From Isoptericola halotolerans (GTDB taxonomy: Bacteria; Actinomycetota; Actinomycetes; Actinomycetales; Cellulomonadaceae), in NCBI RefSeq assembly GCF_003003075.1, contig NZ_PVTX01000007.1, positions 1-64,000 of the forward strand: a stretch of 64,000 nt of DNA, given 5' to 3'. The notes beneath the pieces were generated by a model that was not told the origin of the DNA, did not search any database, and worked only from the letters and a program-made list of their open reading frames with translations. Shown here piece after piece: positions 6,023 through 50,693 of this stretch. The position numbers were made by a program, and so were the translations under genes. Numbering within the stretch: the first letter of the stretch is position 1; every line of letters starts with the position of its first letter.

Positions 6023-8740
<2,718 letters not shown>

Positions 8741-47670: not shown

Positions 47671-48639
47671 GTGGCCTCAGTGACGAGCGCCGACGTCGCC
47701 CGCGCCGCGGGGGTCTCCCGCACGACCGTCAGCTACGTGCTCAACGACACGCCCGGGGCGTCGGTCTCCGAGGCGACACGCGAGCACGTCCGCAGCACGG
47801 CCGCGCGGCTCGGCTACGCGCCGTCGGCGGCCGCACGGACGCTGCGGCGCGGCCGCAGCGACCTGGTCGTCTGCGTGCTGCCCGACTGGCCGACCGGGCC
47901 CGTCGTGGACTCCCTCCTGGACCACCTCACCGACGTGCTCGCCGAGCGCGGGCTGTTCGTGCTCGTCCACCACCACCGCGACTCCCGCGCGCTGGCGGAG
48001 CTGTGGCGGGCCGTGACGCCGCGTGCCGTCGTCGGGCTGGCGCCGTTCGCCGCCGAGGACGTCCGGGCGATGGAGCAGGCTGGGATCGCCGTCGTGGGAT
48101 CGGTGGAACCGGCCGACGGCGGCGCGTTCGACCGCTCGCAGCACGACCTGGCCGTGCTCCAGGTCGACCACCTGGCGTCCCGCGGGCACCGGTCCGTCGC
48201 GTTCGCCACGCCGACCGACGACCGGCTGCGCCGGTTCGGGGACGCCCGGTTCGCGGGGGTCCGTGACGCCTGCGCGGCTCGTCGGCTCCCCGCACCGCGC
48301 CAGGCCGCCGTACCGGCCGACGAGCCGGCCACCGGCACGGTCCGCGCCTGGCACGCCGAAGGGGTCACCGCCGTCGCCGCGTACAACGACGAGGTCGCGC
48401 AGGCGGTGCTCGCCGGGGCACGGGACGCCGGTCTGACGGTCCCCGACGACCTCGCGGTGATCGGCGTCGACGACGCTCCCGCCGCCCGGGTGACGACGCC
48501 CCCGCTGACCACGGTGGCGCAGCCCGTGACCCCGCAGTCGGAGCACCTGGCGGCCAGCGTGCTGGCGGTGCTGGACGGACAGGGACCGCCACCGTGGCCG
48601 GACGACCCGGCGCGCGTCGTCGTCCGCTCCTCGACGTGA
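47671..48639 (+). CDS. LacI-family transcriptional regulator
   Basis: 322 residues. LacI helix-turn-helix and hinge: VTSADVARAAGVSRTTVSYVLNDTPGASVSEATREHVRSTAARLGYAPSAAARTLRRGRS, then a periplasmic-binding-like ligand domain ending LAVIGVDDAPAARVTTPPLTTVAQP. GTG start has AAGGAGGAG. A promoter-like TACAGT precedes it in the dnaE gap. It converges on the beta-helix gene and is the natural candidate to bind the LacI-like operator at 50630-50647. Confidence 0.92.
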   Translation: MASVTSADVARAAGVSRTTVSYVLNDTPGASVSEATREHVRSTAARLGYAPSAAARTLRRGRSDLVVCVLPDWPTGPVVDSLLDHLTDVLAERGLFVLVHHHRDSRALAELWRAVTPRAVVGLAPFAAEDVRAMEQAGIAVVGSVEPADGGAFDRSQHDLAVLQVDHLASRGHRSVAFATPTDDRLRRFGDARFAGVRDACAARRLPAPRQAAVPADEPATGTVRAWHAEGVTAVAAYNDEVAQAVLAGARDAGLTVPDDLAVIGVDDAPAARVTTPPLTTVAQPVTPQSEHLAASVLAVLDGQGPPPWPDDPARVVVRSST

Positions 48640-48640
48640 G

Positions 48641-48674
48641 CCGGCCCCACCCCACGGCTGTGGGGCGGGGCCGG
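48641..48674. terminator. bidirectional terminator
   Basis: Arms 48641-48655 and 48660-48674 pair at 14 of 15 positions around a GGCT loop, immediately after the LacI stop and 8 nt from the convergent beta-helix gene stop. Confidence 0.8.
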
Positions 48675-48681
48675 GGCGAGG

Positions 48682-50607
48682 TCAGGGCGCCGGGTAGTTC
48701 ACCACGTACTCCGGGGACCCGGACGTCGACGGCGGGACCGCATCACCCACGCCGTTGACGACGTGCTGGATGGTGCCGGCGCTGAGGTTGACCGTCATGA
48801 CGTGGTGCAGCTGGACGCCCGGTACCTGCGGCACCGAGAACCCGTTCTCGGTGACGATCTCCGGGTTGTTCTGGTTGAACACGTACACGCCTGCACCGAA
48901 GAGCCGGTGCCGCTCGACGTCGTCGGCGACCTTGTAGCCCTCCCAGCCGAGGGTGCCGTCGGGCTGGGTCCAGTCCGCCTGGGTGGGCGGGTCGTAGGGC
49001 AGCTCGTTCTGGTAGAGCACCACGGTGCCGTCCTCGCCGTTCCAGATCGTGTTGTGCTCCTGGAAGTGCTCGACGAACAGCCCCGTCGCGGTGACCCGGT
49101 CGCCGTTCACCACGACGCCGTTGCGTCCGACGTTGGTGGCCCAGCGCTCCGTGTCGCCGTTGACGCCCGCCGACCCGTCCGTCGGGAAGCCCTCCACGCC
49201 GTGGTCGCCGCGCCACACCCAGGTGTGGTCGATGAGCACGTCGTGCGCGTTGACCTCCAGCGCGACGTCCGCCTTGCCGACGTGCGGCCCGCCGACGCGG
49301 AAGTACACGTCGGACAGCGTGATCGGGTCGACCGGGTCGGACCGGTGGTTCTTGCCGTGCTCCTTGCCCACCCGGAGCAGCGCCGGGGACTCCACGGTGC
49401 CGGCGTCGATGGAGACGCCCGCCACGACGACGCCGGAGGTGTCGGCGACCGTCAGCGGCACGGCGCCGTCGACGGCGGTGAGCGTGGCGTGGCCCATGCC
49501 GAGCACCACGGTGCCGGGGCGCTTGACGGCGATGCTCCGGTCGACGTCGTAGACCCCGGGCGTGAGCAGCAGGTGCTTGCCGCGTGCGAGGTGGCTGTTG
49601 ATGGTCGCCACCGAGTCGCCGGGCTTCGCGACGTAGAAGTCCGTGATCGGCACGGTGCGCCCCGGCGTGGCGCCGTCGGCCCACGAGACCCCGCGGGTCT
49701 CGGTCTGCGCGGCGGGGACGCGCACCTGGTAGCGGCCGGCGTCGTCGACGAACAGGTACGGCTTCTCGCGACTCACCGGTGTGGTGTCGAGCGTCGTGTA
49801 CGGCTCGGTCGGGAAGTTGTCCTCGCTCGGAGCGCCCTCGACGCCGGCGAAGACCTGGTTCCACACCGCGTTGGACCAGCCGCCGCCGAGCTCGCTGTTG
49901 CGGGTCAGCCACTGCTGCTGCGAGCCGTTGGTCACCTGGGTGTCGAAGCGGGAGTCGGCGATGAAGCCGCCGCTGGCGTACTGCGGTCCGGCCGTGCAGT
50001 AGTCCATGAGCGACAGCGGACCGCGCACGTCGAGGCGTCGCATCGAGACGGCCTGGGAGACGGCCCAGAAGTTGGTCGTGGCCTCGCACCCGCCCTGGCC
50101 GGCGGTGTTCACGTCGAGAGCCAGGTTGGAGATCGTCCGCCAGAAGTTCACCAGCGCGATGCAGTTCGGGTTCTCGGGGTCGTCCGACAAGCAGCGGTTG
50201 CGTACCTCGATGGCGCCCTCGACGGTCACATCCTGCGGGGACTCGCCGAGGCCGGCCACCTCGGTGTAGTACCCGACGCCGAACTGCAGCGGGTCCTCGG
50301 CCGAGCCGTAGGTGCCGGGCAGGAAGTAGACGGCGTGCCGGTCCGTGCCCATCTCGGCGTCGACCTGCTGGGCGTGCAGGGCGTCCATGGTCGCCTGGAT
50401 CTCGTCCTGGGGCGTGTCCGGGCCGAACACGGTCACGTTCGGGCCGAAGTCCGGGGCGGTGGGGGCGGCCGCGTCGGGCGGGGCGGCCTGCGCGCCGGGG
50501 ACGGTGGCGATGGCGGTCACGAGGGCTGCTCCTGCGGCGACGGTGGGTACGAGCCGGTGGTGCCGTCGTCGTGCGGTCGCCCGGGCCGGTGCGTGAGGTG
50601 ATGACAT
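48682..50607 (-). CDS. large secreted beta-helix-type protein
   Basis: 641 residues with a secretion signal (about 1-41: basic RRRHHR, hydrophobic VAAGAALVTAIATVPGAQA). The mature part has repeated short strands and turn motifs (VVLGMGHATLTAVDG, VVVAGVSIDAGTVESPALLRVG, DVLIDHTWVWRGDHGVEGF, NGVVVNGDRVTATGLFVEH) like right-handed parallel beta-helix enzymes of the pectate-lyase superfamily. Similar Streptomyces proteins are, as I recall, labelled adenylyl cyclase, for which I see no support. Probably binds or cleaves an extracellular polysaccharide. Start has GAGGAGGA. Adjacent to a LacI regulator; own operator. Confidence 0.78.
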   Translation of the reverse strand: MSSPHAPARATARRRHHRLVPTVAAGAALVTAIATVPGAQAAPPDAAAPTAPDFGPNVTVFGPDTPQDEIQATMDALHAQQVDAEMGTDRHAVYFLPGTYGSAEDPLQFGVGYYTEVAGLGESPQDVTVEGAIEVRNRCLSDDPENPNCIALVNFWRTISNLALDVNTAGQGGCEATTNFWAVSQAVSMRRLDVRGPLSLMDYCTAGPQYASGGFIADSRFDTQVTNGSQQQWLTRNSELGGGWSNAVWNQVFAGVEGAPSEDNFPTEPYTTLDTTPVSREKPYLFVDDAGRYQVRVPAAQTETRGVSWADGATPGRTVPITDFYVAKPGDSVATINSHLARGKHLLLTPGVYDVDRSIAVKRPGTVVLGMGHATLTAVDGAVPLTVADTSGVVVAGVSIDAGTVESPALLRVGKEHGKNHRSDPVDPITLSDVYFRVGGPHVGKADVALEVNAHDVLIDHTWVWRGDHGVEGFPTDGSAGVNGDTERWATNVGRNGVVVNGDRVTATGLFVEHFQEHNTIWNGEDGTVVLYQNELPYDPPTQADWTQPDGTLGWEGYKVADDVERHRLFGAGVYVFNQNNPEIVTENGFSVPQVPGVQLHHVMTVNLSAGTIQHVVNGVGDAVPPSTSGSPEYVVNYPAP

Positions 50608-50629
50608 GCGTCCTCCTCGTCGAGGTCGC

Positions 50630-50647
50630 GGGTGACTCGTGTCACCC
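50630..50647 (-). promoter_or_regulatory. LacI-type operator of the beta-helix gene
   Basis: GGGTGACTCGTGTCACCC has perfect 7-bp arms and, read on the minus strand, a central CG, as LacI-family operators often do. It lies just downstream of a promoter-like pair TTGTCC-18-TAGAGT (minus strand, 50686-50657), where a bound repressor would block early transcription. Confidence 0.65.
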
Positions 50648-50693
50648 GTCGTCGCGACTCTAACGGGCGAGAGGTCCCGCGGACAAGTACTCG

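Follow-up and report, generated by a model that had tools for sequence, protein, structure and literature searches.

A candidate LacI-family regulon for secreted beta-1,3-glucan enzymes in Isoptericola and Cellulomonas

In the GlyR3-celC-licA system of Clostridium thermocellum, the LacI-family repressor GlyR3 controls glucanase genes, with laminaribiose as inducer (excerpts of PMC5483248). In Thermotoga maritima, the ROK-family protein BglR represses a laminarinase operon that also holds a transporter and a beta-glucosidase, and its effectors are cellobiose and glucose (excerpts of PMC3750489). SacteLam55A of Streptomyces sp. SirexAA-E, an exo-beta-1,3-glucosidase of glycoside hydrolase family 55 (GH55), has been solved structurally (PDB 4PEW, 4PEX, 4TYV and 4TZ1). 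Here we analyze the first 64,000 nucleotides of contig NZ_PVTX01000007.1 of Isoptericola halotolerans (hereafter the window), in which a lacI gene converges on the gene of a 641-residue exported protein whose promoter carries an 18-bp palindrome. We report that the exported protein has the sequence features of GH55, that the palindromic motif also precedes a GH81 gene and a gene for an unclassified protein with a twin-arginine-like (Tat-type) signal, and that regulator and motif co-occur in two genera. The LacI protein is likely to be a GlyR3-like repressor of these three secreted proteins, which would serve the use of beta-1,3-glucan.

An earlier description of the window made from its letters (the sequence-only reading) placed a LacI gene opposite that of an exported protein and an 18-bp site downstream of a TTGTCC-18-TAGAGT promoter; all of these are present (Table 1), the signal peptide being recognized by eye. 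It found no convincing function for the protein, and the GH55 assignment now supplies one. In a PDB sequence search at E values up to 1, SacteLam55A chains, in four sequence versions, were the sole matches, at up to 467 bits over residues 51–639. Alignment to SacteLam55A shows 10 of 11 catalytic and subsite positions kept (positions from excerpts of PMC10637969). The general acid E502, whose role is given in the same source, and its helper Y505 correspond to E535 and Y538, both kept in all 26 aligned GH55 loci; Q174, S198, E480 and H481 correspond to Q185, S212, E513 and H514; and W444, W446, D449 and F152 correspond to W463, W465, D468 and F155. W446, D449 and H481 belong to subsite -1 and F152, W444 and W446 to the aromatic block, and all of them are kept. 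Of the Pfam models, PF12708 alone exceeded its cut-off, and a search of NCBIfam gave no match. PF12708 is a general beta-helix model named for rhamnogalacturonase/epimerase, and that name favors the reading of the protein as a pectate lyase, rhamnogalacturonase, GH87 enzyme or binding protein. We regard this as extremely unlikely in view of the exclusive PDB matches to SacteLam55A and the retention of the general acid, the helper Tyr, three of the four relay residues and the aromatic block. By homology, then, the 641-residue protein is a GH55 beta-1,3-glucanase, with its activity predicted. The suggestion of a beta-helix-type, polysaccharide-active enzyme, with GH55 among the folds named, is thus upheld, while the epithet "giant" does not fit 641 residues when the chain of the solved relative has 561. 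Structure prediction, which the sequence-only reading had proposed together with fold comparison, gave an unusable model from the single sequence (predicted local distance difference test, pLDDT, 34), so the two-domain right-handed beta-helix that we infer rests on homology to solved structures, and it was through this homology that the comparison with GH55 was made.

One residue counts against the assignment: in the water-activating relay of T149, S198, Q174 and E480, T149, which also belongs to subsite -1 of SacteLam55A, is replaced by Leu (L152) beside an insertion bearing a Cys. This position is Glu in MnLam55A and hence variable within GH55 (excerpts of PMC10637969). Leu is found there in 9/9 aligned LacI-linked GH55 proteins (nine of ten; G005, with a split match, was left out) and in part of the other GH55 genes, and two genomes (G009 and G033) carry a second GH55 with Thr at this position and no operator. 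The LacI-linked GH55 proteins thus belong to a subgroup whose fine mechanism may differ. GH55 was found in 22 of the 58 genomes compared (own genome included). Plasmid-borne relatives are labeled "adenylyl cyclase", "coagulation factor 5/8 type domain-containing protein", "discoidin domain-containing protein" or "glycoside hydrolase family 55 protein" in databases, which agrees with the earlier suspicion that the family is mislabeled.

We then considered the palindrome. The 3.85-Mb genome holds a single exact copy of the 18-mer. Within the window it shows no enrichment at up to three mismatches (15 found vs. 11.4 expected), and the degenerate motif GTKNCACGWGTMAY, written after the sites were seen, occurs once vs. 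0.03 expected. As a genome-wide search word the 18-mer at up to two mismatches was rejected as too loose (49 forward matches vs. 14 for the reversed control). In the 58-genome set (own included), LacI matched at E 1e-60 in 15 genomes, 13 of which share at least 58% identity and are called LacI+ here; the next value is 48%, and the threshold was chosen after this gap was seen. The core GTGACACGAGTCAC precedes GH55 of the type found in the window (P0002), just after the promoter, in all ten LacI+ genomes that carry this GH55 (nine exact, and G033 with one mismatch, GTGACTCGATTCAC). No GH55 locus of LacI- genomes (0/17) has the core at up to one mismatch, including the three most similar (G052, G039 and G057). 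When two LacI+ paralogues without operator (L024 and L029) are included, the core marks 10/12 LacI+ vs. 0/17 LacI- loci (Fisher 3e-6), a count over 29 of 30 loci that leaves out L027, the second half of a split match, and does not cover matches without a locus. An operator-anchored comparison of the ten genomes gives 0.99 conservation for the operator columns vs. 0.51–0.71 in the flanks. Judged by this phylogenetic footprint, the palindrome before GH55 is to be read as a real operator, and the LacI-like character ascribed to it earlier is borne out: the GTGACACGAGTCAC footprint is a palindrome with central CG at the target promoter, as expected of LacI/GalR operators and as in the 14-bp palindrome of GlyR3 (excerpts of PMC5483248). 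Separately, G013, where the LacI orthologue was not found, holds a broken GH55 copy (L054, ~6060–7270) that matches piecewise, in more than one frame and as far as residue 425, and which retains a decayed operator, GTGACGCGGGTCAC, with two mismatches.

On the minus strand the order is TTGTCC, an 18-nt spacer, TAGAGT, GGGTGACTCGTGTCACCC, 22 nt and the ATG of GH55. A simple sigma-70 scan listed no promoter at TTGTCC/TAGAGT; the promoter call rests on conservation (Table 1). The operator lies just after this conserved promoter and would therefore cover the likely transcript start, a place suited to repression; with transcription assumed to start 7 nt after the -10 box, it would span about +4 to +21. 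Binding of LacI to the 18-bp palindrome at this place would block transcription.

The motif is not confined to GH55. A strict form, again written after the sites were seen, matches three times in the I. halotolerans genome: before GH55, before a distant gene on contig C4 (C4:61895) that encodes a GH81 protein (L160; PF17652, E 9e-59), and before the Tat-type gene (C5:271670). The last two, unlinked genes of exported proteins, had escaped the sequence-only reading. Across the 13 LacI+ genomes there are 25 strict matches vs. 1 for the reversed control, a count that serves as description, and 23/25 stand at GH55, GH81 or the Tat-type gene. In relatives, the Tat-type gene has a site at up to two mismatches in 7/7 LacI+ vs. 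0/4 LacI- genomes (11 of 12 loci used, the fragment L150 being left out). Close GH81 genes have one in 9/10 LacI+ vs. 1/12 LacI- at up to three mismatches and in 4/10 vs. 0/12 at up to two (Fisher 0.03); here 28 of 30 loci were used (L170 and L172 left out), and the 12 LacI- loci were taken without sorting by closeness. Among all 16 GH81 loci of LacI+ genomes, nine carry a site at up to three mismatches, and the seven without are six distant genes (29–37% identity) and one close paralogue (L175). Two genomes (G009 and G012) have two sites at the GH81 gene, one possibly within the first codons, where coding constraint may help conserve it. A role of LacI in activation or in global catabolite control, in place of local repression, is very unlikely: some LacI-family proteins, those of the CcpA type, do act globally, but an operator just downstream of the -10 box in 9/10 genomes fits blocking and not activation, and the presence of only three strict sites in the genome speaks against a global regulator.

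Some candidate sites were set aside. A one-mismatch word, GTGAGACGAGTCAC, recurs in G002, G005, G006, G008, G010, G016 and G017. Three cases were read (L108:4735, L109:4839 and L113:4743, from G002, G010 and G016), and in each the word is flanked by a divergent gene pair, TetR-like and thiolase-like by eye; it is likely to be the operator of another regulator that resembles the LacI one. The other one-mismatch sites examined stand at unrelated genes.

A second set of genomes comes nearer to an independent test than the own-genus counts, although its core pattern was widened after a first look. Among carriers of the Tat-type gene, 18/47 genomes searched have a LacI orthologue at 59% identity or more (next 52%, the threshold again following sight of the gap). 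We examined 53 of 56 Tat-type loci, leaving out L200 and the start-less L227 and L231; L182–L185 belong to Isoptericola genomes already counted above. The 16 LacI+ loci outside Isoptericola are all from Cellulomonas, where the core takes the form GACACGTGTC (GTGACACGATTCAC in C. cellasea NBRC 3753) and is found in 13/16 loci: in 11 it precedes the Tat-type gene in the promoter region, in 2 it lies only inside the signal-peptide coding region, and 3 have none. The variant marks the Tat-type gene in 0/29 LacI- genomes (Fisher 4e-7 for promoter sites, uncorrected for kinship); the number is 29 and not 33 because L215, L217, L218 and L234, which have no site, were outside the LacI search, and some of the LacI- assemblies are incomplete. 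Seven of the Cellulomonas loci have two sites 22–35 bp apart; both are upstream except in L207, one of the seven, which has one upstream and one in the coding region. Motifs related to each other thus mark the Tat-type gene in both genera. The regulator itself is convergent with GH55 in nine genomes of the first set and with GH81 in G033, and in Cellulomonas it converges on a GH81-encoding stretch within 1.5 kb in 12/16 loci; given these pairings, the repressor adjoins GH55 in one genus and GH81 in the other. A fourth Cellulomonas without GH81 near LacI, besides the three described below, retains its Tat-type gene sites (L267, G077).

Several observations weigh against a single regulon of this kind. 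The genomes are related, and the counts of LacI and operator co-occurrence are accordingly not independent events. Two strict matches stand at other genes, one beside a subtilase-like gene (G008:C1:190586) and one next to genes for an XRE-type regulator and an isocitrate-lyase-like protein (G006:C357:5991; both by eye). In I. halotolerans and four relatives, the GH81 sites are three mismatches away from the core, a level reached by 4/400 random 580-nt stretches of the window; four further stretches gave a perfect match, as expected from overlap with the operator itself. When Cellulomonas sites are scored simply by how many positions mismatch the Isoptericola core, the separation is weaker, at 11/16 LacI+ vs. 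3/29 LacI- with up to three mismatches (Fisher 1e-4; the three being L196, L214 and L224) and 4/16 vs. 1/29 with up to two. Three LacI+ Cellulomonas (G075, G081 and G084) have no site before the Tat-type gene (L202, L208 and L211), and the same three have no GH81 within 1.5 kb of LacI (L263, L264 and L265); the regulon may have been rewired in them. At L214 (Cellulomonas biazotea), the word GTGTCACGAGTCAA lies 317 nt upstream of the match and has two mismatches to the core. The best LacI of this genome is only 51% identical, and the word is either a chance word or the site of a paralogue.

The regulator has the domains of the LacI/GalR family, with a helix-turn-helix (PF00356, 53.5 bits) and a periplasmic-binding-protein-like domain (PF13377, Peripla_BP_3, 110 bits), and its recognition helix reads SRTTVSYVLN. 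We think it quite unlikely that another LacI paralogue or other regulator binds the palindrome and that the neighboring LacI is incidental. In other genomes, LacI proteins of 42–52% identity (L269–L280) have an identical or similar recognition helix, and a paralogue of 52% identity in C. cellasea NBRC 3753 is preceded by its own site, GTGACACGTGTCAG (L275:2605), so that the motif may be common to them too. Against this, among the 25 LacI-family matches of the I. halotolerans genome (E 1e-10) the helix occurs in the neighboring LacI and in 0/24 others, the closest being SASTVSYVLS (L298); the next-best paralogues are 38–39% identical, and the 24 paralogue loci (3.7–4.0 kb each) hold no operator site at up to two mismatches. 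The operator sites also track the presence of the LacI orthologue across genomes. In G035, the palindrome GTGATACGAATCAC lies immediately upstream of a different LacI gene that is divergent from one for an ABC-permease-like protein (L132:4796).

Since no operator site was found at up to two mismatches in the 3966 nt around lacI (L091), the regulator probably does not control itself through this motif. This sets the locus apart from GlyR3, which lies within the operon and represses itself (excerpts of PMC5483248): here LacI is convergent to its target, no operator was found near lacI, and unlinked genes of GH55, GH81 and an unclassified family make up the targets. With BglR the likeness is that of a repressor of a laminarinase gene, the differences being its ROK family, its operon content and its effectors (excerpts of PMC3750489).

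The mechanism that we propose starts from repression at the GH55 promoter. Where beta-1,3-glucan is present, as laminarin, callose, curdlan or fungal wall, a small breakdown product, most likely a laminari-oligosaccharide, would be taken up and would free the operator of the repressor, so that the exported GH55 is made and attacks the non-reducing ends of beta-1,3-glucan. At a distance, LacI would also act on the genes of the GH81 endo-beta-1,3-glucanase and of the Tat-type (alpha/alpha)6-barrel protein, and endo-cutter, exo-cutter and third exported protein would be induced jointly. It is possible, though we do not favor it, that the inducer is another compound, such as cellobiose, gentiobiose or glucose, and that the regulon is directed at mixed beta-glucans or at fungal walls generally. 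No transporter gene that would indicate a particular sugar is among the strict-motif matches of the own and LacI+ genomes. GH81 is a family whose known substrate is beta-1,3-glucan, which speaks for a beta-1,3-gluco-oligosaccharide. The literature points both ways: BglR responds to cellobiose and glucose at a laminarinase operon (excerpts of PMC3750489), but the known substrate of GH55 is likewise beta-1,3-glucan (excerpts of PMC10637969), and laminaribiose releases GlyR3, which is itself a LacI-family protein that regulates glucanase genes (excerpts of PMC5483248).

The Tat-type gene of I. halotolerans (C5:270160-271623) encodes a 488-residue protein whose twin-arginine-like signal was identified by eye, and its family comprises 56 loci in Isoptericola, Cellulomonas, Cellulosimicrobium, Oerskovia, Sanguibacter, Streptomyces and others. 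No Pfam family matched at E 0.01, and the best NCBIfam model reached 10.9 bits vs. a cut-off of 800, in searches that did not include CAZy's own models; there is a weak sequence hint of GH76 (E 0.01). A model built from 38 sequences (mean pLDDT 83.8, with residues 1–59 below 50 and 321/477 residues at 90 or above) is an (alpha/alpha)6 barrel that matches many (alpha/alpha)6 enzymes at Z scores up to 32.8. Its neighbors at Z ~29–33 are dextran dextrinase, a "Glycosidase" (5z3a), a methylmannose polysaccharide hydrolase, a bacterial glucoamylase and cellobiose 2-epimerase. Two residues, E251 and E385 (L185 numbering), are invariant over the 38 sequences and would fit as acid and base if the protein is a hydrolase; the fold in itself reveals no activity, and epimerase or other activity would be compatible with the model. 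In Ornithinimicrobium pekingense (L216:1-7245), the Tat-type gene has as neighbors a GH1 gene, a different LacI and genes that look ABC-transporter-like by eye. We tentatively raise the possibility, which we hold to be somewhat less than even, that the protein represents an undescribed (alpha/alpha)6-barrel glycoside hydrolase family that acts on beta-1,3-glucan alongside GH55 and GH81, its targets being for instance side branches or released oligosaccharides, and that the regulator defines an Isoptericola/Cellulomonas beta-1,3-glucan regulon that our literature searches did not turn up. Searches of the open-license literature returned nothing on a LacI with a GH55 operator, a LacI regulon with GH81 or Cellulomonas LacI operators, and nothing relevant on Isoptericola glucanases or on LacI with laminarin or glucanase repression.

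The coordinates of the locus are collected in Table 1. In six genomes its convergent pair is flanked by dnaE and rluD, three more have the pair at another place, and in G008 LacI is still found between dnaE and rluD with GH55 absent there. Of the shared terminator that had been described between the two genes, the strong hairpin is present; it has no T-run and a terminator scan listed no canonical terminator there, so that the element is a probable bidirectional terminator without T-run, common to lacI and GH55.

Table 1 Features of the lacI–GH55 locus, in window coordinates.
Feature	Position	Strand	Basis
LacI/GalR-family regulator, 322 aa, GTG start	47671–48639	+	PF00356 2e-14, PF13377 1.5e-31
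GC-rich hairpin between convergent lacI and GH55	48641–48674	.	66-nt RNA fold -46.8/-46.9 kcal/mol, z -3.3/-4.5 (two strands)
GH55 family beta-1,3-glucanase, 641 aa, predicted exported; ATG at 50607, end at 48682	48682–50607	-	ORF (open reading frame) translation; phmmer 467 bits to 4PEW, residues 51–639; PF12708; catalytic positions
Codon of E535, equivalent of general acid E502 of SacteLam55A	49003–49005	-	Alignment to 4PEW and 4PEX (Ala in 4PEX)
Predicted signal peptide, ~41 aa, ...GAQA/APPD	50485–50607	-	By eye from translation, without predictor
Putative operator GGGTGACWCGWGTCACCC, core 50632–50645	50630–50647	.	Core exact in 9 and with 1 mismatch in 1 of 10 LacI-bearing genomes with GH55
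-10 box TAGAGT	50657–50662	-	TAnnnT hexamer 15–18 nt upstream of operator core in 9/10 genomes; none seen in G051
-35 box TTGTCC	50681–50686	-	TTG-starting hexamer 38–42 nt upstream of operator core in 9/10 genomes; none seen in G033

GH55 enzymes and LacI regulators are known kinds, and the new part is the regulon together with the unclassified (alpha/alpha)6 family. The analysis replaces a vague annotation with a regulon that can be tested, in which one repressor and one motif would join three exported proteins, encoded by unlinked genes, in two polysaccharide-degrading genera. It flags the "adenylyl cyclase" label on some GH55 genes, suggests a substrate for a family of secreted proteins that no Pfam model covers, and offers what may be a compact inducible switch for beta-1,3-glucanases.

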